Shown piece after piece: positions 1,310-43,786 of a stretch of DNA of 64,000 nt. The DNA is from Oscillibacter valericigenes (lineage in GTDB: Bacteria > Bacillota > Clostridia > Oscillospirales > Oscillospiraceae): assembly GCF_016902445.1 (NCBI RefSeq), contig NZ_JACSNX010000009.1, forward strand, positions 1-64,000. Reading direction: 5' to 3'. Made by a program: the position numbers and the translations under genes. The notes below the pieces were generated by a model. It was not told the origin of the DNA. It saw only the letters and a program-made list of their open reading frames with translations, and did not search any database. Numbering within the stretch: position 1 is the first letter of the stretch; each line of letters begins with the position of its first letter.

Positions 1310-1461
1310 AATTAGGAATGAGGAATTAGGAATGAGGAATTAGGAATGAGGAATTAGGAATGAGGAATTGTTGTGTTCCGCCTACGGCGGAACGAAATTC
1401 AAAACGTCCGGCTTTGCCGGACACCAAAATTCCTAACTCCTAATTCCTAACTCCTAATTTC
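1310..1461. repeat. Palindromic heptamer-arm repeat, copy R1 (with 52-bp core)
   Basis: The left arm is about four tandem copies of ATTAGGAATGAGGA (14-nt period, 1311-1366). The right arm is the complementary ATTCCTAACTCCT type (about 1428-1461). Between them, 1373-1424 is a 52-bp core of two hairpins: GTTCCGCC-tac-GGCGGAAC and GTCCGGC-ttt-GCCGGAC. The same core recurs at 26436, 31164 and 43111 with identical length. Confidence 0.85.
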
Positions 1462-3723: not shown

Positions 3724-4158
3724 ATGGCATTATACAGTGAGAAGGTAATGGACCACTTCCAGCATCCCCGGAACGTGGGGAAGCTGCCTGACGCCGACGG
3801 CGTGGGGGAGGTGGGCAACGCCAAGTGCGGGGACATCATGCGGATGTACATCCAGGTGGACCCGGAGACCCAGGTGATCACCGATGTGAAGTTCAATACC
3901 TTTGGCTGCGGCAGCGCCATCGCCACCAGCTCCATGGCCACGGAGCTGATCAAAGGCAAGCCCATCGCCGAGGCGCTGAAGCTGACCAACCGGGCGGTGG
4001 TGGAGGCCCTGGACGGCCTGCCCACCCATAAGATCCATTGCTCCGTACTGGCGGAGGAGGCGGTGCGGGCGGCTGTCCGGGACTACTATGACCGCAATCA
4101 CATCCCCTACGGCCCTGAACTGGCGCCGCGGGAGGATGCAGAGGACCACGGGCATTGA
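3724..4158 (+). CDS. nifU: Fe-S cluster scaffold protein, NifU/IscU family
   Basis: 144 aa. This is the U-type scaffold domain only, without the C-terminal Nfu domain of the long nitrogen-fixation NifU. The three conserved cysteines are Cys35 (NAKCGD), Cys62 (FGCGSA) and Cys106 (HKIHCSVLAEEA), with the Asp of CGD that favours cluster transfer. It accepts sulfur from the NifS encoded immediately upstream and builds [2Fe-2S]/[4Fe-4S] clusters. GAAAGGAGA precedes ATG 3724. A terminator begins directly after the stop codon. Confidence 0.95.
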   Translation: MALYSEKVMDHFQHPRNVGKLPDADGVGEVGNAKCGDIMRMYIQVDPETQVITDVKFNTFGCGSAIATSSMATELIKGKPIAEALKLTNRAVVEALDGLPTHKIHCSVLAEEAVRAAVRDYYDRNHIPYGPELAPREDAEDHGH

Positions 4159-4190
4159 AAAAAGCCCCGGAGCAACGCTCCGGGGCTTTT
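4159..4190 (+). terminator. Terminator after nifU
   Basis: AAAAGCCCCGGAGC and GCTCCGGGGCTTTT arms abut the nifU stop codon. The A and T runs on both sides allow bidirectional use with the convergent gene at 4199. Confidence 0.92.
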
Positions 4191-4198
4191 ACGGTCGA

Positions 4199-4600
4199 TC
4201 AGAGATCCGCGTCTTCAAAATCGTCCGCGTCGGGATAGCAGTCTGCAAACATCTTCTCGAACCGCCGCTGATTCCGGCGGTTGTTGGGCGTCATCCGGTT
4301 CAGGCTCTTCAGGAAGGCGAGGATCATGCCGAAAAGATACCCGAAGGTGGCGGCAGAAGCGGTGAGCCGGATCACCAGCACAGAGATCACAGCCACACAC
4401 AGAAAGCCGATGACCGTATGCCGTACGATCCGCCTCAGGGCCAGGGACAGGTCAAAATCCGGGACCTGCTGCTTCCGGCGCCGGGCCAGGGAGATCGAGG
4501 AGCAGAGCGCCACCAGCGCCTGGATGCCGAAAACGCTCATGATGAGGAATCCGACTGCGGCGGCGAACAGGAAACGGAGGGCGATCGAGAATACGTCCAT
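4199..4600 (-). CDS. Small integral membrane protein of unknown function
   Basis: 133 aa from ATG 4600, preceded by GGGAGGAG. I do not recognise a family. It shows a hydrophobic segment near residues 5-30, a basic loop containing ARRRKQQ, two further hydrophobic stretches around 60-100, and a polar tail rich in Arg/Asn and then Asp/Glu (YPDADDFEDADL). That fits two to three membrane helices with a cytosolic tail. A strong promoter lies immediately upstream (TTGTCA and TATAAT, 17 bp apart). The neighbours, phosphodiesterase and Fe-S genes, give no functional hint. Confidence 0.65.
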   Translation of the reverse strand: MDVFSIALRFLFAAAVGFLIMSVFGIQALVALCSSISLARRRKQQVPDFDLSLALRRIVRHTVIGFLCVAVISVLVIRLTASAATFGYLFGMILAFLKSLNRMTPNNRRNQRRFEKMFADCYPDADDFEDADL

Positions 4601-4637
4601 GCCAGGTTTCTCCTCCCGTGTCCGATTAACTTTTCTT

Positions 4638-4666
4638 ATTATACAGGAAAACCGCCGGTTTGACAA
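4638..4666 (-). promoter_or_regulatory. Promoter for the small membrane protein gene
   Basis: On the minus strand, -35 TTGTCA (4661-4666) and a consensus -10 TATAAT (4638-4643) with a 17-bp spacer. Confidence 0.8.
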
Positions 4667-4673
4667 GAGGTGT

Positions 4674-5141
4674 TCACGCCAGCCAAACGGTCCGCCCGTC
4701 CAGCTGTCCGCCCTGGATGGTCACAACGGCATAGGAAGGGCGGGTGGAGTCGCCGATGCTGCCGGGGTTCAGGAACAGCGTCCGGCCCCGCCGGTCCACC
4801 AGGGGCTTGTGGGTATGGCCGAAGAGAAACAGATCCAGCTGCTGTTCCTCTGCCGCAAAACCGGCGGTCACAAGGGACTGCTTCACCCCGTACGTGTGGC
4901 CGTGGCACAGAAGGATCCGCTTGTCCCGCAGCACCAGCAGCCGCTCTGCCGGTTCCGTCGGGCGGAAGTCACAGTTGCCGGGCACCTGTTCCAGCGGGAT
5001 GTCGGGGAAATATGTGTGGAGCCGCTCGCCGTCCCGCCAGCAGTCTCCCAGATGGATGATCAGATTCGGAGCGGTCAGCTCCACGGCGCGGATCATAGGG
5101 GCCACAGCCCCATGGGAATCGGAGAGTACCAGGATATCCAT
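4674..5141 (-). CDS. YfcE/MJ0936-type metallophosphodiesterase
   Basis: 155 aa. The calcineurin-like motifs are all present: VLSDSHG (residues 5-11), HLGDC (DxxxxGD-type), PGNCD (GNxD), the metal His in LLCHGHTYG, and FGHTHKP near residue 118. Short proteins of this family hydrolyse phosphodiesters such as bis-pNPP or cyclic nucleotides with two Mn/Ni ions. The physiological substrate is unknown. ATG 5141 is chosen because GGAAGGAA precedes it and the longer upstream reading has no such site. A TTGCAT-17-TATACT promoter lies at 5172-5200. Confidence 0.85.
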   Translation of the reverse strand: MDILVLSDSHGAVAPMIRAVELTAPNLIIHLGDCWRDGERLHTYFPDIPLEQVPGNCDFRPTEPAERLLVLRDKRILLCHGHTYGVKQSLVTAGFAAEEQQLDLFLFGHTHKPLVDRRGRTLFLNPGSIGDSTRPSYAVVTIQGGQLDGRTVWLA

Positions 5142-5171
5142 AAGCCCATTCCTTCCAGAGATGTTTTTTTC

Positions 5172-5200
5172 AGTATAGCGGAAATAAAGAGAGGATGCAA
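5172..5200 (-). promoter_or_regulatory. Promoter for the phosphodiesterase gene
   Basis: Minus strand: -35 TTGCAT (5195-5200), 17-bp spacer, -10 TATACT (5172-5177). Confidence 0.7.
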
Positions 5201-5311
5201 TTCCTTCTGCGATCGAACTCCGTACCGGACCGCCCGGGATCCTGCCTTCCGCCGGGCGGCCCGCAGGCAGCAGGCTTTCGGCGGGGAAGCGGAAAAATTT
5301 GAAAAAGGGGG

Positions 5312-5425
5312 TTGACAGGAGCGCACATCCATGGTATATTCTGTACATGGTTAGTTAATACTAACTAACGGCGCGGGCCGGGAGCGGCCCATTCTTTTCA
5401 ACCGATAGTTTGTTTAAACTAACTT
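5312..5425 (+). promoter_or_regulatory. Iron-regulated promoter with two iron boxes
   Basis: TTGACA (5312-5317), 17 bp, TATATT (5335-5340). The dyad GTTAGTTAATACTAACTAAC (5350-5369, perfect TTAGTTA/TAACTAA arms) covers the start region. It resembles the DtxR/IdeR box (TTAGGTTAGnCTAACCTAA). A second, weaker dyad TAGTTTGTTTAAACTAACT lies at 5406-5424, just before the gene. A DtxR-like repressor is encoded at 9889. Confidence 0.75.
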
Positions 5426-5451
5426 TCGGGAACAGGAACGGAGGGACTGCC

Positions 5452-6018
5452 TTGGAACGGAGCTTTGAAGCGGTGCTGGTGGAGCAGTGCGCGACCACAT
5501 TGGCAGGTGTGAAGCCGGCCAGCCTGTTCCGGTACCAGGGCGCTGACCGGCGGCAGTCCCGGGAGGCTGCGGCCCGCTGGGCCAAGGAGCTGGCCCCTTA
5601 CGGCATCACCGTCCGGATCCTGAAGGTCTGCCCGCAGACGGGTGCTTGTCTGATCTACCTGTACCGGGCCGGATGGCTCCGGTCGATCCTCTCGGAGCCA
5701 TCCAACCGCGCCTTTCTGGCACGGCAGGGGTATCAGACGGACCAGGGCTGTCCGGGGCTGCTGCGGCAGCTCTCCCGGCGGCTGTGCCTGGAGAGGGAGT
5801 TCCCCCATGAGATCGGCGTGTTTTTGGGCTATCCGCTGGAGGACGTGGTGGGCTTCATCGAAAACCGCGGCAGGAACTACACCTGCTGCGGATGCTGGAA
5901 GGCCTACGGCGATCCGGAGGCGGCCCGGAGACGCTTTGATCAGTACCGCCGCTGCACCGCTGCCTGCAAGGAGCGGTTCCGGCGGGGCGCGCCCATCACA
6001 CAGCTGATTGCGGCGTGA
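5452..6018 (+). CDS. DUF3793 family protein
   Basis: 188 aa from TTG 5452, preceded by GGAGGG with 6-nt spacing. The upstream in-frame TTG at 5410 lies inside an operator and has no ribosome site. The SxE-VL-EQCATTLAG start, an interrupted CPQTGACLIYLY strand, FLGYPLEDVVGFIENRG and the closing YTCCGCWKAYGD...C motif are characteristic of DUF3793. This clostridial family has unknown function and is often found near iron or flavodoxin genes. Several conserved cysteines could bind metal, though that is inference. It is co-transcribed with the flavodoxin 29 bp downstream under an iron-box promoter, so it is probably induced by iron limitation. Confidence 0.85.
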   Translation: MERSFEAVLVEQCATTLAGVKPASLFRYQGADRRQSREAAARWAKELAPYGITVRILKVCPQTGACLIYLYRAGWLRSILSEPSNRAFLARQGYQTDQGCPGLLRQLSRRLCLEREFPHEIGVFLGYPLEDVVGFIENRGRNYTCCGCWKAYGDPEAARRRFDQYRRCTAACKERFRRGAPITQLIAA

Positions 6019-6047
6019 ATCTTATCTGCTGGAAAGGAAGCACCGAT

Positions 6048-6479
6048 ATGAACAAATTAGCCATCGTCTACTGGAGCGGCACCGGCAATACGGAAACCAT
6101 GGCCAACTGCATCGCAGAGGGGGCCAGAGAGGCCGGCGCGGATGTGACCCTGATGGGACCTGCCGAGTTCTCCGCCGCCAAGTTCGCAGAATACAGTGTT
6201 GTTGCCTTCGGCTGTCCCGCCATGGGGGCGGAGCAGCTGGAAGAGGACGAAGTGGAACCCATGTTCGCCGGGCTGGAGGGATCCCTGGGCGGGAAGAAGA
6301 TCGCCTTGTTCGGCTCCTACGGCTGGGGCGACGGCCAGTGGATGCGGGAGTGGTGCAGCCGCTGTGCGGCGGCGGGCGCCAGCCTGTATGACGAAGAGGG
6401 CCTGACAGCCAACGAATCTCCCAGCGAGGAGGCCCGAGAGGCCTGCCGGGAGCTGGGGCGCAAGCTGGCGGCCTGGTAA
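6048..6479 (+). CDS. Flavodoxin
   Basis: 143 aa, a short-chain flavodoxin from ATG 6048 (GGAAAGGAAG upstream). The FMN phosphate loop is YWSGTGNTE (residues about 8-16). FGCPAMG and FGSYGWGDGQW form the isoalloxazine-binding loops, with the Tyr/Trp that stack on FMN. It carries low-potential electrons in place of ferredoxin. Placement behind an iron box fits the classical use of flavodoxin when iron is scarce. Confidence 0.92.
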   Translation: MNKLAIVYWSGTGNTETMANCIAEGAREAGADVTLMGPAEFSAAKFAEYSVVAFGCPAMGAEQLEEDEVEPMFAGLEGSLGGKKIALFGSYGWGDGQWMREWCSRCAAAGASLYDEEGLTANESPSEEAREACRELGRKLAAW

Positions 6480-6488
6480 ACTCTGCTC

Positions 6489-6569
6489 ATCAAAGATCTT
6501 TCTTTGATACTTATCTCCTTTTTTCCCCTCAACATGGCCCTCGCGCGGTGTGCCTGCCGCGCGGGGGCC
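6489..6569 (+). terminator. Two hairpins between flavodoxin and feoA
   Basis: An 8-bp hairpin ATCAAAGA/TCTTTGAT (6489-6508) is followed by CTCCTTTTTT. A longer GC-rich hairpin (arms 6536-6548 and 6557-6569, one mismatch) follows. The first has the better T-run and is the likely terminator. Confidence 0.55.
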
Positions 6570-6620
6570 GACTCCTTTTCCGCTTTGCCGCGATGTTTTC
6601 AAATTTTTCCGGAAAAGGGC

Positions 6621-6684
6621 TTGACAGGCATGGTTAGTCATGGTAAACTACCGAATCGAAAGAAAGGTTAGCAAATGCTAACCT
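6621..6684 (+). promoter_or_regulatory. feoA promoter with iron box
   Basis: TTGACA (6621-6626), 17 bp, TAAACT (6644-6649). The dyad AGGTTAGCA-AA-TGCTAACCT (6665-6684), with 9-bp perfect arms, closely matches the DtxR/IdeR iron box. A weaker GGTTAGT...AACTACC dyad overlaps the -10. Confidence 0.8.
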
Positions 6685-6728
6685 CCGCAGCAAAGAACAG
6701 GAAGCGTCTTGTAGAGGAGGGAGGTCCC

Positions 6729-6941
6729 ATGATGCCTCTGACGATGGCCCGGCCGGGAGAGACGGTCACGATTCGCAAGATCACCGGCAAGGATGAGATC
6801 CGTCAGCATCTGGCGGAGCTTGGCTTTGTGGTGGACAGCGATGTCACCGTGGTCAGCGAGATCGCCGGCAATCTGATCCTGCAGGTGAAGGACAGCCGGG
6901 TGGCATTGGACAAGACCATGGCGAATCGGATCATGATTTGA
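6729..6941 (+). CDS. feoA: Ferrous iron transport protein FeoA (first copy)
   Basis: 70 aa from ATG 6729 (a second ATG follows at once; GGAGGGAGG is just upstream). The longer reading from 6675 begins inside the iron box and is rejected. It is a small SH3-like domain: MARPGETVTIRKITGKDEIRQ, then HLAELGFVVDSDVTVVSEIAG and a LQVKDSRVALDKTMANRIMI end, the classic FeoA pattern. FeoA is a cytosolic accessory factor that modulates the FeoB GTPase/permease. It is the first gene of feoA-feoA-feoB. Confidence 0.92.
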   Translation: MMPLTMARPGETVTIRKITGKDEIRQHLAELGFVVDSDVTVVSEIAGNLILQVKDSRVALDKTMANRIMI

Positions 6942-6969
6942 GTGTTTGCAAGAGTTAGGAGGACGAACG

Positions 6970-7191
6970 ATGAAGACCCTGAAAGATGTCAAGGTGGGAG
7001 AGACTGCCACAGTAGTCAGGCTCTACGGAGAGGGCGCCACCAAGCGCCGGATTATGGACATGGGCATCACCAAAGGCGTGGAGGTCCATGTCCGCAAGGT
7101 CGCGCCGCTGGGTGACCCCATGGAGCTGAATGTGCGGGGCTATGAGCTCAGCGTGCGGAAGGCAGACGCGGAGATGATCGAGGTCTCTTAA
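6970..7191 (+). CDS. feoA: Ferrous iron transport protein FeoA (second copy)
   Basis: 73 aa from ATG 6970, with AGGAGG 8 nt upstream. SH3-like FeoA core: DVKVGETATVVRLYGEGATKR, then RIMDMGITKGVEVHVRKVAPLGDPMELNVRGYELSVRKADAEMIEV. The PLGDPxEhxhxGYxLSLR motif is the FeoA/DtxR-C signature and is better preserved here than in the first copy. The two paralogues are only 28 bp apart. Two FeoA proteins ahead of one FeoB is common in Clostridia, perhaps as distinct subunits of one complex. Confidence 0.93.
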   Translation: MKTLKDVKVGETATVVRLYGEGATKRRIMDMGITKGVEVHVRKVAPLGDPMELNVRGYELSVRKADAEMIEVS

Positions 7192-7474
7192 AGAGGGGAC
7201 TGCGTCCCCCCCTTTAGAGTCCCCCTCACCAGTCTGCGGACTGGTGGACGCCGCCCAAGGCGGCCGGGTCAAAGTATTTTCGCCACGTACATGCCGCGGC
7301 GAAAATAATCCTATTTTCTTCATCTGCCTTTGGCAGATGAACCGGAAAAACCGTAGGTTTTTCCCGGCCCTTTTCCCGGACGGTGCGGGAACAGGAGAGA
7401 CGATAAGGGCGGCTTTGGCCGCTGTTTTTCAGGAAGAAAGTTAGCTTTAACTAACATTTTGGAAGGAGAGAACG
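7192..7474 (+). promoter_or_regulatory. feoA-feoB intergenic region with hairpins and an iron box
   Basis: No gene. Successive hairpins include GGGGAC/GTCCCC (about 7196-7210), CATCTGCC-ttt-GGCAGATG (about 7321-7339) and GGAAAAACC-gta-GGTTTTTCC (about 7343-7363). The dyad GTTAGCTTTAACTAAC (7440-7455) is a third iron box, 19 bp before feoB. It suggests that feoB has its own iron control besides read-through from feoA. Confidence 0.6.
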
Positions 7475-9664
7475 ATGGACATTAAGATCGCACTGGCCGG
7501 CAACCCGAACTGCGGCAAGACCACGCTGTTCAACGATCTGACCGGCTCTAACCAGTACGTGGGCAACTGGCCCGGCGTCACGGTGGAAAAGAAGGAGGGC
7601 CGCCTGAAGGGCCGCAAGGATGTGGTCATCCAGGACCTGCCCGGCATCTACTCCCTGTCTCCCTACACGCTGGAGGAAGTGGTGGCCCGGAACTACCTGG
7701 TGAAGGAAAAGCCCGACGCCATTTTGAACATCGTGGACGGCACCAACATCGAGCGGAACCTCTACCTCACCACCCAGCTGATCGAGCTGGGGCTGCCGGT
7801 GGTGGTGGCCGTCAACATGATGGACCTGGTCCGCAGGAACGGCGACCAGATCGACGCCAAGAAGCTCAGCGACGCCCTGGGTTGCCAGGTGGTGGAGATC
7901 AGCGCCCTGAAGGGCGAGGGCGGCGTGGCCGCTGCGGAGCTGGCTGCCAAGCTGGCCCAGCAGAAGTGCGCCGGCGAGCTGCCCCACGTGTTCACCGGCA
8001 GCGTGGAGCACGCCATCGCCCACATCGAGGAGTCCATCCAGGGCAGGGTGGACGACCGCTACCTCCGCTGGTACGCGGTGAAGGTCTTTGAGCGGGACGA
8101 GAAGGTCCTGGCGGACCTGGACCTGAGCGCCGACCTCCGTGCCCATCTGGAGGACCACATCGTGGACTGCGAGAAGGAGCTGGACGACGACGCCGAGAGC
8201 ATCATCACCAACCAGCGGTATGCGTACATCAACGGCCTGGTCAGCAAGTCCGTCAAGAAACACGGGGAGAAGCACCGCCTCTCCACCTCCGACAAGATCG
8301 ACCAGATCGTCACCAACCGGATCCTGGCCCTGCCCATCTTCGCCGTGGTAATGTTCGCGGTGTACTGGATCGCCATGGGCCCCTTCGGCACCTTCCTGAC
8401 GGACTGGACCAACGACGTGCTGGGCACCGCCTGGCTGGTGGACATCCCCAAGGCCGCCCTGGAGGGCTGGGGCGTCAATGAGGTGCTCGTCGGCCTGATC
8501 TGCGACGGCGCCCTGGCCGGCGTGGGTGCGGTGCTGGGCTTCGTGCCCCAGATGCTGGTGCTGTTCCTCATGCTGGCCGTTCTGGAGGACATCGGCTACA
8601 TGGCCCGGATCGCCTTCATCATGGACCGGATCTTCCGGAAGTTCGGCCTCTCCGGCAAGAGCTTCATCCCCATGCTGGTGGGCACCGGCTGCGGCGTCCC
8701 CGGCGTCATGGCCTCCCGCACCATTGAGAACGAGCGGGACCGGCGTATGACCGTCATGACCACCTGCTTCATCCCCTGCGGCGCCAAGCTGCCCATCATC
8801 GGCATGATCGCCGGCGCCCTGTTCAACGAGTCGGCCCTGGTGGGTGTCTCCGCCTACTTCATCGGCGTGGCGGCCATCGTCATCTCCGGCATCATCCTGA
8901 AGAAGACGAAGCTCTTCGCCGGCGATCCGGCGCCCTTCGTCATGGAGCTGCCCGCCTACCACACCCCCTCCGCCGGCAACGTGCTGCGGGCCACCTGGGA
9001 GCGGGGCTGGTCCTTCATCAAGCGGGCCGGCACCGTGATCCTGGCCTCCTCCATCGTGCTGTGGTTCCTCCAGGGCTTCGGCTGGGAGAACGGCGCCTTC
9101 GGCATGGTGGCGGACATGAACAACTCCGTCCTGGCCGCCATCGGCACCGCCATTGCCTTCGTGTTCGTGCCCCTGGGCTTCGGCTCCTGGCGGCTCACCG
9201 TGGCGGTGTTCACCGGCCTCATTGCCAAGGAGAACGTGGTGGCCACCCTGGCTGTGCTCTACGGCTACGCCGGCGACCTGAGCGACAACGGCGACGAGAT
9301 GTGGGGCCTGCTGGCCGCCTCCGGCGACCTCACCGCCATCTCCGCCTATTCCTTCATGATCTTCAACCTGCTGTGCGCACCCTGCTTCGCGGCCATGGGC
9401 GCCATCAAGCGGGAGATGAACAACCCCAAGTGGACGGCCATCGCCATCGGCTACATGTGCGTGTTCGCCTATGTGGTCTCCCTGATCGTCTATCAGATCG
9501 GCGGCCTCATCACCGGCGAGGTGGCCTTCGGCTTGGGCACCGTCGTGGCTGCAGTGCTGATCGCTGGGATCCTGTACCTGCTGTTCCGCCGGAACAGATA
9601 TGACGATGAGCGGCTGACCATCAGCGCCGTGGAGGCTGCCAGCCGCCGCGCTGCCGCCAAGTAA
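7475..9664 (+). CDS. feoB: Ferrous iron transporter FeoB
   Basis: 729 aa, full length for the family. The N-terminal G domain shows G1 GNPNCGKTT (residues 9-17), the G2-region Thr in WPGVTVEKKEG, G3 DLPGIYSL and G4 NMMD. A helical GDI-like segment follows (about 170-265), then the permease with about eight membrane helices and two Gate repeats, including VGTGCGVPGVMASRT and PCGAKLPI. It imports Fe(II) across the cytoplasmic membrane. The C-terminus ends without a FeoC-like domain. GGAAGGAGAG precedes ATG 7475. Confidence 0.97.
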   Translation: MDIKIALAGNPNCGKTTLFNDLTGSNQYVGNWPGVTVEKKEGRLKGRKDVVIQDLPGIYSLSPYTLEEVVARNYLVKEKPDAILNIVDGTNIERNLYLTTQLIELGLPVVVAVNMMDLVRRNGDQIDAKKLSDALGCQVVEISALKGEGGVAAAELAAKLAQQKCAGELPHVFTGSVEHAIAHIEESIQGRVDDRYLRWYAVKVFERDEKVLADLDLSADLRAHLEDHIVDCEKELDDDAESIITNQRYAYINGLVSKSVKKHGEKHRLSTSDKIDQIVTNRILALPIFAVVMFAVYWIAMGPFGTFLTDWTNDVLGTAWLVDIPKAALEGWGVNEVLVGLICDGALAGVGAVLGFVPQMLVLFLMLAVLEDIGYMARIAFIMDRIFRKFGLSGKSFIPMLVGTGCGVPGVMASRTIENERDRRMTVMTTCFIPCGAKLPIIGMIAGALFNESALVGVSAYFIGVAAIVISGIILKKTKLFAGDPAPFVMELPAYHTPSAGNVLRATWERGWSFIKRAGTVILASSIVLWFLQGFGWENGAFGMVADMNNSVLAAIGTAIAFVFVPLGFGSWRLTVAVFTGLIAKENVVATLAVLYGYAGDLSDNGDEMWGLLAASGDLTAISAYSFMIFNLLCAPCFAAMGAIKREMNNPKWTAIAIGYMCVFAYVVSLIVYQIGGLITGEVAFGLGTVVAAVLIAGILYLLFRRNRYDDERLTISAVEAASRRAAAK

Positions 9665-10284: not shown

Positions 10285-10437
10285 TTAGGAATGAGGAGTT
10301 AGGAATTAGGAATTGAAACGGCAGCAGAGGTTTTCCTCCATGATCGCCTGCCAGACAACAAGGACCCGGCGGCCTGATGGCCCCGGGTCCTTGCTTACGC
10401 GCAGAATTCCTAATTCCTAACTCCTCATTCCTCATCC
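10281..10437. repeat. Palindromic heptamer-arm repeat, copy R2 (terminator inside)
   Basis: Left arm 10281-10316 (TTAGGAATGAGGAGTTAGG type), right arm 10404-10437 (ATTCCTAACTCCTCATTCCT type). The 52-bp core is absent. The insert carries a hairpin AAGGACCCGG/CCGGGTCCTT (10360-10392) that can serve as a terminator between the convergent dtxR and degV genes. The left arm supplies the dtxR stop TAA and the right arm the degV stop TAG. Confidence 0.8.
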
Positions 10438-15955: not shown

Positions 15956-16066
15956 ATGGTGTCCTCCTTTGAAAAAGCGCTTACAAAGAACGGACAACCA
16001 AGGAGGCAGGTTACTGACGGCCATTCGGCCGCTCCCGGACTACCGACCGGGACGTGTTTTTATCTT
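15956..16066 (-). promoter_or_regulatory. Putative yjdF (azaaromatic) riboswitch
   Basis: On the minus strand the leader begins ATAAAAACACGTCCCGG, forms CCCGG...CCGGG and CGGCC-GAAT-GGCCG hairpins, then GTCAGTAACCTGCCTCCTTGG. The CCTCCTT run can pair with the AAGGAGG ribosome site of yjdF, which gives a translational switch. The layout and the downstream gene fit the yjdF RNA motif. I cannot run a covariance model. Confidence 0.72.
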
Positions 16067-16075
16067 TGCGCCATC

Positions 16076-23447: not shown

Positions 23448-24728
23448 TCAGTCTGCCAGGGCCGCCAGCGCCCGCCGGCCGATGTCGTGGCGCAGGTATT
23501 TGCCGTCAAAGTCCACCGTCTCCGCGGCGGCGTAGGCGTCGGCAAGCGCCTGCCGCAGGGTGGGGCCGGTGGCAGTGATACCCAGCACCCGGCCGCCGCT
23601 GGTGACCAGCCGGCCGCTCTCGTCCAGCCTGTCTCCGGCGTGGTAGATGGTCACGTTCCCCGGCAGGGAAGCGGGCAGGGAGATGGCCTTGCCCTTCTCA
23701 TAGTGGCCCGGATACCCGCCGGAGGCCAGGATGACGCAGGCGGCGGAGGCGTGCCGCCACTCCACGGTGAGTTCTCCCAGGGTCTCGTTCTCCACCGCCT
23801 GCATGACGGTCAGCAGGTCCGTTTTCAGCAGGGGCAGCACCACCTGGGTCTCCGGGTCCCCGAAGCGGCAGTTGTACTCGATGACCTTGGGCCCGTCCGG
23901 GGTCAGCATCAGCCCGAAGTACAGGCAGCCCTTGAAGGGGCAGCCCTCCGCCCGCATGGCGGCCAGGGTCGGCAGGAAGATGGTGTCCATGCATACCTGG
24001 GCGATGTCCTCCGTGTAGCAGGGGTTGGGGGCCACGGTGCCCATGCCGCCGGTGTTGAGGCCGGTGTCCCCGTCCCCCGCCCGCTTGTGGTCCATGGAGG
24101 ACACCATGGGGGCGATGGCAGTGCCGTCGGTAAAGGCCAGGACGCTGACCTCCGGCCCGGTCAAGAACTCTTCGATGACCACCCGGCTGCCGGAGTCCCC
24201 AAAGGCCCGGTCCTCCATGATGGTCCTGACCGCCGCCTCCGCCTCTTCATAGGACCGGGGGATCAGCACCCCCTTGCCCAGTGCCAGGCCGTCCGCCTTG
24301 ATGACGATGGGGAAGGAGGCGGTCCGCAGGAAAGCCAGGGCCTCCGCCGGGGAGGTGAACACCTCATACCGGGCGGTGGGGATGTGGTGTTTCTGCATCA
24401 GGTCCTTGGCAAAGACCTTGCTGGACTCGATCCGGGCGGCCTTGGCGTCCGGGCCGAAGCAGGGGATGCCCGCGGCGTGGAGGGCGTCCACGCACCCCAG
24501 GGCCAGGGGGTCGTCCGGCGCCACCACGGCGAAGTCCGCGGCGTGGCTCCGGGCGAAGGCCACGATGCCGCCGATGTCCGTGGCCCCGATCTCCGGCACG
24601 CAGACGGCGTCCGCCGCGATGCCGCCGTTGCCCGGCAGGGCGTAGATGGTCTCCACATTCGGGTTCTCTTTCAGTTTTTTGATGATGGCGTGCTCCCGGC
24701 CGCCGCCGCCCACTACGAGGAGCGTCAT
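23448..24728 (-). CDS. purD: Phosphoribosylamine-glycine ligase (GAR synthetase)
   Basis: 426 aa, typical length. The ATP-grasp architecture is visible: N-terminal VVGGGGREHAI, the ATP loop KADGLALGKGVLIP (about residues 145-158), TGGMGTVAPNP, and the metal ligands in EYNCRFGDPETQ. It joins glycine to phosphoribosylamine, step two of de novo purine synthesis. AAAGGCTGTGACAAC precedes ATG 24728, a modest ribosome site. The four-helix-bundle repeat cassette begins 22 bp upstream and sits between this gene and purH. Confidence 0.95.
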   Translation of the reverse strand: MTLLVVGGGGREHAIIKKLKENPNVETIYALPGNGGIAADAVCVPEIGATDIGGIVAFARSHAADFAVVAPDDPLALGCVDALHAAGIPCFGPDAKAARIESSKVFAKDLMQKHHIPTARYEVFTSPAEALAFLRTASFPIVIKADGLALGKGVLIPRSYEEAEAAVRTIMEDRAFGDSGSRVVIEEFLTGPEVSVLAFTDGTAIAPMVSSMDHKRAGDGDTGLNTGGMGTVAPNPCYTEDIAQVCMDTIFLPTLAAMRAEGCPFKGCLYFGLMLTPDGPKVIEYNCRFGDPETQVVLPLLKTDLLTVMQAVENETLGELTVEWRHASAACVILASGGYPGHYEKGKAISLPASLPGNVTIYHAGDRLDESGRLVTSGGRVLGITATGPTLRQALADAYAAAETVDFDGKYLRHDIGRRALAALAD

Positions 24729-24750
24729 GTTGTCACAGCCTTTCTGTCAA

Positions 24751-25161
24751 TGAGGAATTAGGAGTTAGGAATTAGGAATTTTCCCGTCTCGGATGGATTT
24801 GGTGATGGAGGAGAGGAGCTTGCGAAGTTCCTCACAGTCCTGATAGAGAGATTTGTACTCCGGGGAAGATACGTAATCGCACGAGTATAGCAGTTCCAGC
24901 CAGTACAAGGTCTCGGCGGATTCCTTCAAGGCAATATAGAGCTTGTTGAGAAAATCCTTTCGGCTGCTTGCATACTGCGCCTCGGAAATGTCGGCGCCGA
25001 TGCTGGTACCGCTGCGGAGAAGCTGCTTGGAAAGCACATATTCCCTTTTCTCCTCACAGAGGTATTGATAAAGCATGACGATGCGTCTGGCAAACAACAG
25101 GCTTTTGCACCTGACCTCGTTCTCCTTCAATTCCTAACTCCTCATTCCTAATTCCTAATTT
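24751..25161 (-). mobile_element. Four-helix-bundle cassette flanked by heptamer arms (copy R3)
   Basis: About 410 bp inserted between purH and purD. The outer arms are the R-family heptamer repeats: ATGAGGAATTAGGAGTTAGG (24751-24770) on one side and its complement type (25130-25159) on the other. In place of the 52-bp hairpin core found in other copies it holds one gene. On the coding strand the upstream arm supplies GAGGAG 7 nt before the TTG start, and the downstream arm supplies the final codons and stop TAA. No transposase and no clear target duplication are visible. Mobility is inferred from the dispersed relatives. Confidence 0.7.
24765..25130 (-). CDS. Four-helix-bundle protein (23S rRNA IVP/S23 family)
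   Basis: 121 aa from TTG 25130. The pattern KSLLFARRIVMLYQYL, VLSKQLLRSGTSIGADISEAQYA, DFLNKLYIALKESAETLYWLELL, then EELRKLLSSITKSI is the 23S_rRNA_IVP/TIGR02436 four-helix bundle. Members encoded in 23S intervening sequences form small pentameric bundles, and a relative is the accessory protein of diversity-generating retroelements. The molecular role is unresolved and nucleic-acid binding is suspected. Here the gene is free-standing in an operon of unrelated function, and its start, ribosome site and stop are made by flanking repeat arms. It is clearly AT-richer than purD and purH, which points to transfer. Confidence 0.88.
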   Translation of the reverse strand: MKENEVRCKSLLFARRIVMLYQYLCEEKREYVLSKQLLRSGTSIGADISEAQYASSRKDFLNKLYIALKESAETLYWLELLYSCDYVSSPEYKSLYQDCEELRKLLSSITKSIRDGKIPNS

Positions 25162-26340
25162 TTAGTGGTGGAACAGCCGCATCCCGGTGAACGCCATCAC
25201 GATGCCGTACTTATTCGCCGTCTCGATGACATTGTCGTCCCGAATGCTGCCGCCGGGCTCGGCGATATATTGGACGCCGGATTTTCTGGCCCGCTCCACG
25301 TTGTCGCCGAAGGGGAAGAAGGCGTCGGAGCCGCAGGTGACGCCGGTGAGGGTGGAGATCCAGGCCTTTTTCTCCTCCGCCGTCAGGGGTTCCGGCTTCA
25401 CGGCGAAGGTCTGCTGCCAGACGCCCTCCGCCAGCACGTCCTCGTACTCGTCGGAGAGGTACACGTCGATGGCGTTGTCCCGGTCCGGGCGGCGGATGTG
25501 CTCCACGAACTGCAATCCCAGCACCTTGGGGTGGTGCCGCAGCCACCAGGTGTCCGCCTTGGTGCCCGCCAGCCGGGTGCAGTGGATGCGGCTCTGCTGG
25601 CCCGCCCCCACGCCGATGGCCTGGCCGTCCTTCACATAGCACACGGAGTTGGACTGGGTGTATTTCAGGGTGATGAGAGCCACGATCATGTCCCGCCTGG
25701 CATCCTCCGGCAGGTCGCGGTTCTCGGTCACGATGTTGGTCAGCAGGTCCTCGCTGATGGTAAAATCGTTCCGGCCCTGCTGGAAGGTGATGCCGAACAC
25801 GTCCTTGTACTCCTGGGGGGCGGGGACATAGTCCGGGTCGATCTGCACGATGTTGTAGTTGCCCTTCTTTTTGGCTTTCAGGATCTCCAGGGCTTCCTCG
25901 GTGTAGCCGGGGGCGATGATGCCGTCGGACACCTCCAGCTTCAGATACCGGGCGGTATCGCCGTCGCACACGTCGGAGAGGGCCGCCCAGTCCCCGTAGG
26001 AGCACAGCCGGTCCGCCCCTCTTGCCCGGATGTAGGCGCAGGCCAGGGGGGACAGGTCTCCCGCCTGCTCCACGAAGTACATCTGACGCTCCACGTCGGA
26101 GAGGGGCAGCCCCACGGCGGCCCCGGCGGGGGAGACGTGCTTGAAGGACGCGGCGGCGGGCAGGCCGGTGGCGTCTTTCAGCTCCCGCACCAGCTGCCAG
26201 GAGTTCAGGGCGTCCAGGAAGTTGATGTACCCCGGCCTGCCGTTCAGCACGGTGAGGGGCAAATCGGTCCCATCCCGCATGAAGATGCGGGCGGGCTTCT
26301 GGTTGGGGTTGCAGCCGTATTTCAGTTCCAGTTCGTTCAT
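25162..26340 (-). CDS. purH: AICAR formyltransferase (stand-alone PurH C-terminal domain)
   Basis: 392 aa. Only the transformylase half of PurH is present; the N-terminal IMP cyclohydrolase (MGS-like) domain is missing. Conserved parts are LKYGCNPNQKPA at the start, the catalytic KHVSPAGAA (Lys-His), YTQSNSVCYVKDGQAIGVGAGQQSR and SDAFFPFGDNVERA. It transfers formyl from 10-formyl-THF to AICAR, giving FAICAR. The missing ring closure is supplied by the PurO-type protein at 26528. Its stop TAA abuts the repeat arm at 25160. The ribosome site is weak (GGGAGGTTTGCC). Confidence 0.93.
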   Translation of the reverse strand: MNELELKYGCNPNQKPARIFMRDGTDLPLTVLNGRPGYINFLDALNSWQLVRELKDATGLPAAASFKHVSPAGAAVGLPLSDVERQMYFVEQAGDLSPLACAYIRARGADRLCSYGDWAALSDVCDGDTARYLKLEVSDGIIAPGYTEEALEILKAKKKGNYNIVQIDPDYVPAPQEYKDVFGITFQQGRNDFTISEDLLTNIVTENRDLPEDARRDMIVALITLKYTQSNSVCYVKDGQAIGVGAGQQSRIHCTRLAGTKADTWWLRHHPKVLGLQFVEHIRRPDRDNAIDVYLSDEYEDVLAEGVWQQTFAVKPEPLTAEEKKAWISTLTGVTCGSDAFFPFGDNVERARKSGVQYIAEPGGSIRDDNVIETANKYGIVMAFTGMRLFHH

Positions 26341-26356
26341 GGCAAACCTCCCGATA

Positions 26357-26537
26357 CAATTAGGAATTAGGAGTTAGGAATTCGGAATTTTTGAGAGTGA
26401 AGATAGGAGATAAAAGATAAGAGATAGGAGTTGCGGTGTTCCGCCGGAGGCGGAACGATTGAAATTCGTCCGGCTTTGCCGGACACCACAATTCCTAATT
26501 CCTAACTCCTCATTCCTCATTCAGCTTCTATCTCCTC
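26357..26537. repeat. Palindromic heptamer-arm repeat, copy R4 (mixed arms, 52-bp core)
   Basis: Core 26436-26487, same 52-bp double hairpin as R1, R5 and R6. The left side carries both arm types in series: TTAGGAATTAGGAGTTAGG, then AGATAGGAGATAAAAGATAA. The right side has ATTCCTAATTCCTAACTCC and then CTATCTCCTCACTCC. The right end supplies the purO stop codon TAG. Confidence 0.88.
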
Positions 26538-31063: not shown

Positions 31064-31384
31064 TGGAAAATCCTCCTTGTTTTTTAGTTAAGAGATAAAA
31101 GTGAAAAGATAAAAGGTATTGAGAGTGAAGAGTGGAGAGTGGAGAGTGGAGATAGGAGTTGATGGGTTCCGCCGCAGGCGGAACGATTTGAAATCGCCCG
31201 GCTCCGCCGGACACCAAATCTCTTATCTTTTATCTCTTCCCTCTTATCTGTTCTGTGTCGGCCCGGCTCTATGCCATTAGGAAATGTGAATACATCTATT
31301 AGACCGATTAGAAAAACTGAACGGTTTGGGACGGAAAATCCGGAAGCGGGGGCCGCTGGCGCAGCTCCGCGTTCCGGAGGGGCG
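31064..31384. repeat. purE-purC gap holding palindromic repeat R5
   Basis: No gene seen. Core 31164-31215 is the 52-bp double hairpin. The arms (31083-31163, 31216-31250) are of the second type, GAGATAAAAG/AGATAAGAG and GAGAGTGGAGA, instead of TTAGGAAT. The remaining stretch to 31384 is AT-rich without a clear promoter or terminator, so read-through from purE to purC is expected. Confidence 0.82.
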
Positions 31385-42137: not shown

Positions 42138-42179
42138 GGAAAATACGGAAAGAAGCCCCGGAGGGACACTCCCGAACAG

Positions 42180-42360
42180 CCATCGATAGCGCTTCACAAA
42201 GGTTTGTGACAGTCCGGCAGGTATTCCCTGACGACCCAGCGCCGGAAGGACAGGCATCGTCCCGGCACTTCGGCGGCGGACCCTTTCCCACCCGGCGGCT
42301 GCCTGGCCTTGCCGGAGCGGTACTGATGAACGCCGCGCCTCTATCTGAGCGATCCAATTT
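42180..42360 (-). promoter_or_regulatory. Lysine riboswitch (L-box)
   Basis: Minus-strand leader with the hallmark lysine aptamer strings in order: GATAGAGGCGCGG (ending near 42333), CAGTACC, GGGAAAGGG, CGCCGCCGAAGTGCC, GGGTCGTCAGGG and CTGTCAC (about 42206-42212). These match conserved junction segments of the B. subtilis lysC leader (GATAGAGGTGCG, GAAAGGGG, CGCCGAAGC, GCTGTCA). A promoter precedes it and a terminator follows. Lysine binding should repress the transporter. Confidence 0.9.
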
Positions 42361-42548: not shown

Positions 42549-43088
42549 ATGCAGACGGCGGAGCTGGCGGTGCTGGACTGGATCCAGACCCATCTGCGGT
42601 GCGGCTTTCTGGATGCGGTGCTGCCGGTCATCAGCTGGACCTGCGACCACGGGGAGATCTGGATCCTGCTGGCGGCGGTGCTGCTGTTCTGGAAAAAACA
42701 CCGGTGGACGGGGGTGTCGGTGTCCTTCGCCCTGATCCTGGACCTGATCTGCTGCAACATGATCCTGAAGCCCCTGGTGGGCCGCATCCGGCCCTTTGCG
42801 GTGAACACGGCGGTGGAGCTGCTGACTGCGCCCCCCGCAGACGCCTCGTTCCCCTCGGGCCACACGGCGGCGTCCTTCGCGGCGGTGTTCGCCCTGTGGG
42901 CCTCCGGCAGCCCCCTGTGGAAGCCGGCGGCGGTGCTGGCGTCGGTCATCGCCTTCTCCCGGCTGTACCTGTACGTCCACTGGCCCACCGACGTGCTGGG
43001 AGGCATCGTGGTAGGGGCCGTTGTCGGCACGGCGGGTGCCTGGATCGCCAAGAGACTGCGGAAGAAGCTGGGGGAAATTAGGAGTTAG
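42549..43088 (+). CDS. PAP2-family membrane phosphatase
   Basis: 179 aa with five to six membrane helices. The phosphatase motifs are complete: KPLVGRIRP (KxxxxxxRP, residues 75-83), ASFPSGHTA (PSGH) and SRLYLYVHWPTD (SRxxxxxHxxxD). Such enzymes dephosphorylate undecaprenyl pyrophosphate (BcrC-like) or phospholipid phosphates. GGAAGGAGTGTGAGG precedes ATG 42549, and a TATGAT -10 lies about 45 bp upstream. The last codons and the TAG stop (EIRS-stop) are written by repeat R6, so the native C-terminus may have been longer. Confidence 0.9.
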   Translation: MQTAELAVLDWIQTHLRCGFLDAVLPVISWTCDHGEIWILLAAVLLFWKKHRWTGVSVSFALILDLICCNMILKPLVGRIRPFAVNTAVELLTAPPADASFPSGHTAASFAAVFALWASGSPLWKPAAVLASVIAFSRLYLYVHWPTDVLGGIVVGAVVGTAGAWIAKRLRKKLGEIRS

Positions 43089-43194
43089 GAATTAGGAGTT
43101 AGGAATTGATGTGTTCCGCCGCAGGCGGAACGATTTCAATTTGTCCGGCTCCGCCGGACGCCAAAATTCCTCATTCCTAATTCCTAACTCATTC
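43076..43194. repeat. Palindromic heptamer-arm repeat, copy R6 (52-bp core)
   Basis: Arms AATTAGGAGTTAGGAATTAG (43076-43095 and on to 43107) and ATTCCTCATTCCTAATTCCTA (from about 43166), core 43111-43162. It separates the convergent PAP2 and PsiE-like genes and provides the in-frame stop of PAP2 while abutting the stop of the other. No T-run: a spacer, not an obvious terminator. Confidence 0.88.
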
Positions 43195-43607: not shown

Positions 43608-43786
43608 AATGAGGAATGAGGAGTTAGGAATGAGGAATGAAAAGCCGTAGGGGCCGACCTGTGTGTCGGCCCGTTGCTCGATGCTGGAGCGGCCCCTTCT
43701 GTGCCGTAGGGGCGGCAAGTTGCCGCCCGGGGGGAACCGGCAGGGGGATGGCGGACGGGCGGACACATAGGTCCGCCCCTACAGGG
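43608..43786. repeat. Single heptamer arm (R7) plus TAGGGGC-type palindromes
   Basis: AATGAGGAATGAGGAGTTAGG (about 43608-43638) is one arm without a partner. It is followed by GTAGGGGCCGACCTGTGTGTCGGCC and, inverted further on, GGCGGACACATAGGTCCGCC-CCTAC, with CCGTAGGGGCGGCAAGTTGCCGCCC between. This is a cluster of dispersed palindromes in the gap upstream of the PsiE-like gene. No gene seen. Confidence 0.7.

Follow-up and report, generated by a model that had tools for sequence, protein, structure and literature searches.

An IVP-family gene between purH and purD of Oscillibacter valericigenes lies within heptamer arms shared with dispersed hairpin-only elements

The window analysed here is a stretch of 64,000 nt from the genome of Oscillibacter valericigenes (G000; 2.84 Mb, 96.5% complete). 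Between two ORFs that we take to be purH and purD, as in an earlier sequence-only reading, it carries a gene of the IVP (four helix bundle) family. All three genes lie on the minus strand, in the order purH (25162..26340), IVP (24765..25130; 121 aa, TTG start), and purD (23448..24728) along the coding strand. The IVP gene is bracketed by two arms: one on its 5' side (25129..25160), which fills the gap to purH and whose coding-strand sequence is AATTAGGAATTAGGAATGAGGAGTTAGGAATTG, and one on its 3' side (24749..24780), which contains the last codons and the TAA. Inverted-repeat comparison shows that these arms are an inverted pair, 32 nt each and 88% complementary, made of the 7-nt units TTAGGAA, TTAGGAG, and TGAGGAA (TTAGGAR heptamers). 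The ORF, the profile matches, and the arms bear out what the sequence-only reading had described at this place. As it had also stated, the gene is richer in AT than its neighbours, with a GC content of 49.5% versus 64.7% in purH and 69.1% in purD.

The same reading had proposed that the arms supply the expression signals of the gene. Here, GAGGAG lies in the upstream arm, 7 nt before the TTG, whose first two bases are the last two of the arm, and the downstream arm encodes the end of the gene, ATT CCT AAT TCC TAA. This overlap of arms with ribosome site, start, and stop holds for the TTAGGA lineage (G000, G018, and G025), but not for the five intact cassettes of the genus with other heptamers, where, as read by eye, an ATG start stands at or just inside the arm end and the stop codon precedes the downstream arm. 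In 8/8 intact genus cassettes, read by eye, the upstream arm has a GGAG-type word inside it or on its border, at a short spacing from the start in some of them.

The protein matches PF05635 with 99.9 bits (cut-off 33.8; E 1.1e-28) and TIGR02436 with 106 bits (cut-off 24; E 1.1e-30) in profile searches, and its gene is the single PF05635 gene of the genome. Its AlphaFold model (pLDDT 94) has the four-helix-bundle fold of the solved IVP entries 2rld (best match; Z 21.2, 1.1 Å across 111 residues) and 2gsc (second; Z 17.0), followed by the Avd chains of diversity-generating retroelement (DGR) complexes (Z 13.5-14.1), slightly above a designed bundle (Z 13.1). The matches under the Avd rows (designed bundles at Z 13.1, copper storage proteins at about 11) were set aside as common four-helix arrangements. 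Both 2rld and 2gsc contain five chains, and the IVP of X. campestris is described as a toroidal homopentamer in the available part of PMC4990558. By analogy with the five chains of its solved relatives, the window protein would be ring-shaped (pentameric). The IVP genes of relatives are under purifying selection, with more synonymous than amino-acid changes (dN/dS 0.011/0.094 for G000-G018 and 0.047/1.23 for G040-G004; two more pairs are near saturation).

The arms are not restricted to the gene. Arm-like 12-mers occur 28 times within the window, against 0.09 expected and with 0/100 shuffles reaching 28, and a 16-mer arm word with at most one mismatch has 57 + 50 = 107 matches in the genome, the reversed-pattern control having 0. 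The genome thus contains dispersed, paired hairpin elements whose ends match the flanks of the gene, as had been noted from the sequence, and the presence of an IVP gene within heptamer arms shared with hairpin-only elements is confirmed. At the sites read, the purine arm comes first and the pyrimidine arm second, one of them being missing or degraded at some sites. By eye, 28 of 38 segments share a core of two GC-rich hairpins and a GATTTGAAATCG-like linker; in the remaining ones, the interior is a terminator-like hairpin, a different repeat, arms made of other heptamers, or part of the core. Arm length is narrowly distributed, with a median of 32 nt (middle half 26-37) in 21 of the genome's own elements, and 31-33 nt in seven and 38 nt in one of eight genus cassettes.

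Within the window, hairpin-only elements with TTAGGAR arms and the two-hairpin core lie at 1312..1457 and 43078..43187, TTAGGAR arms surround a terminator-like hairpin at 10285..10434, and the hairpin-only element at 26360..26519 is flanked on one of its sides by additional heptamer families. The element at 31122..31240 has an AGAGTG-type left arm and an AGATAAR-type right arm, and a single TTAGGAR arm on the plus strand (43610..43635) is followed by another dispersed repeat. A further repeat, GTAGGGGCCGACCTGTGTGTCGGCCCG, adjoins heptamer arms both in the window (43610-43730) and at locus L081. No Rfam family matches the hairpin-only elements of the window at gathering thresholds. A lysine riboswitch (42179-42351) and an azaaromatic (yjdF) riboswitch (15974-16073) lie on the minus strand of the window. 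An RNAalifold alignment of 20 elements gives 16 pairs, two with changes on both sides; both of these reflect two cores swapping order, and the alignment is therefore weak evidence for RNA structure. The idea that hairpin-only members are deleted gene copies found no support, their interior being mostly a different two-hairpin unit, unlike the gene.

Site by site, the elements vary between relatives. G018 has the 1312 element at the corresponding position, with a left arm of fewer heptamers, and its site in G024 and G056 has AGATAAR-like arms around another interior. The interior of 10285-10434 is inverted in G018 and G056 (99-100% identity over 153 nt; flanks about 90%), which looks as if the element can flip, and at this site G024 and G038 have a similar terminator between other, partly degraded heptamers. 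The 26360-26519 element is present in G000, G018, G024, and G058, and is absent, with a 60-65-nt spacer instead, from G004, G025, G038, and G056 (four of seven relatives compared). Other versions occupy the 31122-31240 site in relatives; the 43078 site has an AGAGTG-armed version in G018 and none in G024 and G038. The TTAGGA elements read comprise 27 in G018 (17 common to G000, 3 not, 7 unplaceable), 7 in G056 (3 common, 3 not, 1 unplaceable), and 4 in G024 (2 common, 0 not, 2 unplaceable). Three intergenic sites of G000 hold an AGATAAR element where G018 or G056 has a TTAGGA element with another interior, so that different heptamer families re-use the same gaps; G056 has two TTAGGA elements at places that are occupied by another heptamer family in G000. 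By eye, comparison with the empty sister sites, whose gaps have diverged, shows no target duplication at purH/purD or at 26360, and no transposition event was seen in the comparisons made.

The arms might be a by-product of replication, with period-7 slippage and template switching at inverted repeats making matched arms anywhere and IVP genes being merely tolerated. The higher number of heptamers in the left 1312 arm of G000 than in that of G018, the inverted interior of the 10285 element, and the slippage explanation for bacterial heptamers that is cited in the available part of PMC4692102 all agree with such an origin, which nevertheless leaves unexplained the core common to 28/38 segments (by eye) as well as the co-distribution of heptamers with IVP and the joint travel of gene and arms described below. 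We consider it very improbable.

In a sample of 61 congeneric genomes, PF05635 is present in 11 and in its strong type in 9. All nine strong genes sit between purH and purD, the copy of G008 being frameshifted, and their arms are of the TTAGGAR (G000, G018, G025), AGAGTGR (G034, G058), GATAGGA (G004, G040), or AGATAAR (G013) type or a GAGATTG-like mixture (G008). The strong genes thus share one site but use at least four heptamer types. PurH was found in 52/61 genomes, and junctions were read in the 30 best of these, plus G034. Eight of the 30 purH-purD junctions have a cassette and 22 do not, so the gene is not a fixture that all sisters carry within ordinary flanks. The clean absence that the sequence-only reading had proposed to look for is found in the sister G056, whose junction runs TAA-GAAAGG-purD, with 37 nt up to the purD glycine motif; those of G024 and G038 have other spacers and no gene. 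In several genomes that lack IVP (L046, L056-L059), the gap between purH and purD is taken up by a different, dispersed-looking repeat, which centres on CACCAGTGACATCGGTCACTGGTG and has variants.

Within the genus, presence of the gene goes along with a load of heptamers. Of four patterns counted in the 61 genomes, all with reversed controls of 0, TTAGGAR occurs in 17 genomes, AGAGTGR in 12, GATAGRA in 6, and AGATAAR in 12. Summed matches, own arms included, reach at least 14 in 9/9 IVP-positive versus 5/52 IVP-negative genomes, with identical counts at thresholds of 5 (Fisher 1.2e-7) and 10, and at least one match is found in 9/9 versus 11/52 (Fisher 1e-5). Among the exceptions, G024, G056, and G048 have intact cassette-free junctions, yet 29, 27, and 14 heptamer matches, which argues against a strict need for the gene; their elements may predate gene loss, or the gene may not be needed. 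The cassette is not judgeable in G002, because this genome is 56% complete and has no PurH match, or in G042, because its contig breaks off some 85 nt past purH, just beyond an AGAGTG arm. G030, which has two Avd-like genes, shows 0 matches of the four heptamers. This correlation might reflect a need of the hairpin-only members for the IVP gene in trans.

The type of heptamer also tends to agree. The cassette's own heptamer is the commonest of the four counted in 6/8 genomes (permutation 1/1680; 2/1680 after removing the four own-arm matches), the two GATAGGA cassettes (G004, G040) lying in genomes where another heptamer is commoner. G013 has 75 AGATAAR matches versus 1 of TTAGGAR, the AGATAAR pattern having been taken from its cassette and set before its genome was counted. 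Set against phylogeny, the association of IVP and heptamers can be followed in 3 supported independent pairs, of which an average of 2.5-2.7 agree and 0 oppose; since there are only three, a sign test on them cannot reach significance, and the independence of the association from phylogeny is weakly shown.

In a PurH tree of 26 genomes (25 of the 30 junction genomes, without G012, G032, G043, G045, and G052, together with G034), IVP presence is scattered (7 changes versus 7.7 in shuffles), and the association is therefore not that of one clade. G000, G018, and G058 form a clade in this tree (support 100/99). The IVP of G058 is 64% identical to that of G000 and 75% to that of G034, a more distant host, and AGAGTG arms are found in both G058 and G034. 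The IVP tree groups by arm type instead (supports 96/97, 92/90, and 77/84; as few changes in 6/200 shuffles), and the host clade G000+G018+G058, chosen after the identities had been seen, is rejected for IVP (p-AU 4e-5). Strictly vertical inheritance of the cassette is ruled out by this tree. At the level of sequence, gene and arms evidently travel and get replaced together, also between species. Of the mobile family with gene-bearing and hairpin-only members that the sequence-only reading had suggested, the shared arms, the patchy cassette, the empty sister site, and the coming and going of elements stand, which upholds the suggestion in part.

The pairing of gene and arms extends well beyond the genus. 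Among the best 80 of at least 576 confirmed IVP relatives, a 24-nt inverted repeat matching at 19/24 or better lies near the IVP gene at 64/80 loci, versus 0/670 controls (windows shifted by 1-3 kb), and 16/80 are without clear arms. At these best 80 loci, self-similarity at a lag of 7 is high upstream of 30 genes and downstream of 44 (controls 0.4% and 0.9%), and at some other lag between 4 and 12 it is high in one upstream and one downstream flank. By record title, the hosts include Clostridia, Bacteroidota, Okeania, Proteobacteria, and Kiritimatiellota. Arms, searched both with and without the gene in this genome and its relatives and found in both forms, also enclose IVP genes of other phyla. 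Three further sets, with near-duplicates kept in, give armed loci at 12/16 (plasmid/phage; 16 of 27 matching records read, 15/25 plasmid and 1/2 phage), 7/11 (viral contigs), and 18/30 (genomes of the phylum), with controls of 0/96, 1/60, and 1/177, respectively; these sets amount to 37/57 and all sets to 101/137.

Similarity of IVP proteins goes along with similarity of heptamers. Mantel tests on the 64 loci at 19/24 or better, with phylum labels assigned by hand from record titles and 5 of the 80 unlabelled, give rho 0.34 overall and 0.295 between phyla (p 0.0005), the latter becoming 0.289 after control for locus GC and 0.214 for locus and heptamer GC (p 0.001). In 39/60 cases, heptamer similarity to the closest IVP from a different phylum is above the median; of the twelve cross-phylum pairs with the most similar IVPs, the majority lie at about the median, several sharing no heptamer. 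The cross-phylum correlation is thus modest. In 36 genomes reached through IVP loci, at least five matches of the pattern AATTGAK occur in 6/15 with AATTGA-type arms, as classed by hand, and in 2/21 others (67 and 18 matches); the reversed control is not empty, with 16 matches in the L155 genome, where it equals the L155 arm unit, and 23 and 12 in those of L112 and L140, whose arms are of other types. Arm length, taken at 60 of the 80 loci in a count that leaves out five scoring 19/24 and keeps one scoring 18, has a median of 30 nt (middle half 25-33).

Rings that bind repeated short words in RNA have a precedent in TRAP, whose rings bind triplet repeats. The IVP ring might accordingly be a post-transcriptional regulator that binds purine-rich, ribosome-site-like heptamers in mRNA and controls its own cassette together with the mRNAs holding hairpin-only copies, which would have spread by recombination and slippage. 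The narrow arm length of about 4.5 units would suit such a role, as would the position of Avd, the nearest fold relative, in an RNA-protein complex (according to structure entry titles). In favour of the RNA reading, upstream arms of the genus also hold ribosome-site-like words, the GGAG-type words of 8/8 intact cassettes; but the AT-rich heptamers of other hosts (AATTGAT) are unlike ribosome sites, and neither the downstream arm nor the gain and loss of whole elements is explained, which makes this role quite unlikely in our view.

The search for partner enzymes covered two families, reverse transcriptases (RT, PF00078) and Y1 transposases (PF01797), and found neither in G000 at E 1e-3 (96.5% complete genome). 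In 33 genomes searched, RT was not found in 8 of 14 heptamer-loaded ones (G000, G002, G004, G018, G024, G040, G042, and G058, of which G000, G018, G024, and G042 are at least 90% complete), and Y1 was not found in 6/14 (G000, G002, G008, G040, G048, and G058) and is weak in some others. Both were rejected as constant partners. The weak PF05635 matches, two in G030, one in G048, and a second one in G013, each have an RT gene no more than about 1.5 kb away, as Avd does.

The IVP gene might instead be a passenger, that is, captured cargo of MITE-like, heptamer-armed elements moved by an unrelated transposase. Like MITEs, these elements are short, dispersed, and bounded by terminal inverted repeats; terminator-like hairpins and other repeats are likewise found between the arms, and IVP-negative sisters keep their elements. 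Unlike the case of MITEs, no parent transposase with the same ends was found (RT and Y1 families searched), no target duplication is visible by eye in the diverged gaps, and the arms consist of tandem heptamers, which at one and the same site can vary from species to species. In addition, arms accompany IVP at 101/137 loci of many phyla, a constancy that cargo would not show, the IVP clade matches the arm type, and G000 has no Y1 transposase (this being the one transposase family looked for). Altogether, we regard the passenger explanation as unlikely.

IVP genes are best known from 23S rRNA intervening sequences (IVS). An rRNA insert was considered and rejected as the origin of the window copy: the gene lies between purH and purD, the Rfam matches in the window include no rRNA, and its placement in an mRNA operon outside 23S rRNA, as first read, is upheld. 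A 23S motif was found in none of 215 loci including flanks. The IVS with an S23p/IVP ORF (Coxiella, Leptospira) resemble the cassette in having an IVP-family ORF between stem-forming inverted repeats; the cassette differs from them by its place in an mRNA operon, by the purifying selection on its gene, and by the scattered hairpin-only elements that carry its arms. A literature search, mostly outside subscription journals, revealed no paper linking IVP-family genes in general with heptamer arms; heptamers at one rRNA-borne copy have already been published. In the available part of PMC4990558, the C. burnetii 23S IVS is described with tandem heptamers (GACAGAT) in variable number before the ORF, and older proposals are cited of IVS as mobile or as remnants of transposition.

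Heptamers are likewise on record without the gene. X. campestris has 186 GGGAATC arrays (ATCC 33913) and 70 convergent inverted pairs (Rehm et al., PMC4692102), and dispersed intergenic heptamers comprise TAACTGA in Beggiatoaceae and others and the Calothrix heptanucleotides (PMC4679880, PMC4692102). Like those described here, they are dispersed and intergenic; the available parts of both papers give no IVP partner. X. campestris, host of the GGGAATC arrays, also has the IVP of solved structure (XCC0516, 2gsc). Avd of the diversity-generating retroelements shares the fold (Z 13.5-14.1) and PF05635 membership with the window protein, and differs in that no RT lies beside the cassette or elsewhere in G000.

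A close parallel would be REPIN/RAYT. RAYTs are a family of Y1 HUH transposases, and G000 has no Y1 domain gene by the PF01797 search (E 1e-3); we know of no catalytic site in IVP. As in the available part of PMC8049555, one chromosomal gene is accompanied by many short hairpin elements with matching ends, which are commoner where the RAYT gene is present. RAYTs are described there as vertically inherited and unseen on plasmids, unlike IVP cassettes, which switch between hosts and occur on plasmids. The best reading of our data is that the system would work like REPIN/RAYT without a recognised transposase.

We therefore favour, as fairly probable, a single horizontally moving repeat system of gene and arms, whose heptamers would be recognised in trans by a ring-shaped, Avd-like IVP protein. 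The pairing of gene and arms across phyla, the co-occurrence of IVP and heptamers in the genus, the agreement of IVP clade with arm type against the host tree, and the empty sister site are established at the sequence level; the binding of heptamers by IVP, mobilisation, and chemistry are what we infer from them. The cassette would be the gene-bearing member of the repeat family, with IVP encoded inside a pair of inverted arms, each about 4.5 heptamers long. Throughout the genome, identical or related arms that lack the gene enclose small structured units. The protein would recognise its cognate heptamers, single-stranded or as a hairpin, and perhaps one per subunit, an idea derived from the about 4.5 heptamers per arm and the five subunits. 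Such recognition could spread, repair, or homogenise arms in trans, the strand chemistry being provided by host replication or repair enzymes.

A wider version would cast transposase-free repeats as a widespread bacterial class with IVP, acting in trans, at its core: a toroidal pentamer would read tandem heptamers on displaced or hairpin single strands, about one per subunit, and host polymerases would copy the arms and their contents to new sites. On this view, reverse-transcribing Avd systems, rRNA IVS, and the orphan heptamer arrays known from Xanthomonas, cyanobacteria, and Beggiatoaceae would all belong to one family as its branches. We put this forward tentatively, as a possibility with the chances rather against it.

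IVP/S23 proteins have long been known without a function, and abundant heptamers have been described in several phyla without a partner. The data presented here tie the two together and give each a testable partner, which fits the heptamers of the Coxiella rRNA insert and would point to a repeat system that behaves like REPINs but is operated by an Avd-like protein, no nuclease being recognised in it.

The surroundings of IVP genes elsewhere are varied. On plasmids, they were seen inside operon-like clusters, between hsdS and hsdR (L236) and between cas2 and cas1 (L246, L247), and adjoining helicase, methylase, or DUF1156 genes (L244, L248, L249, L250). Several IVP genes stand in a row in contig C150 of G337 (4002-8790), and IVP pairs of equal score lie far apart in contig C1 of G112 and contig C1 of G168.
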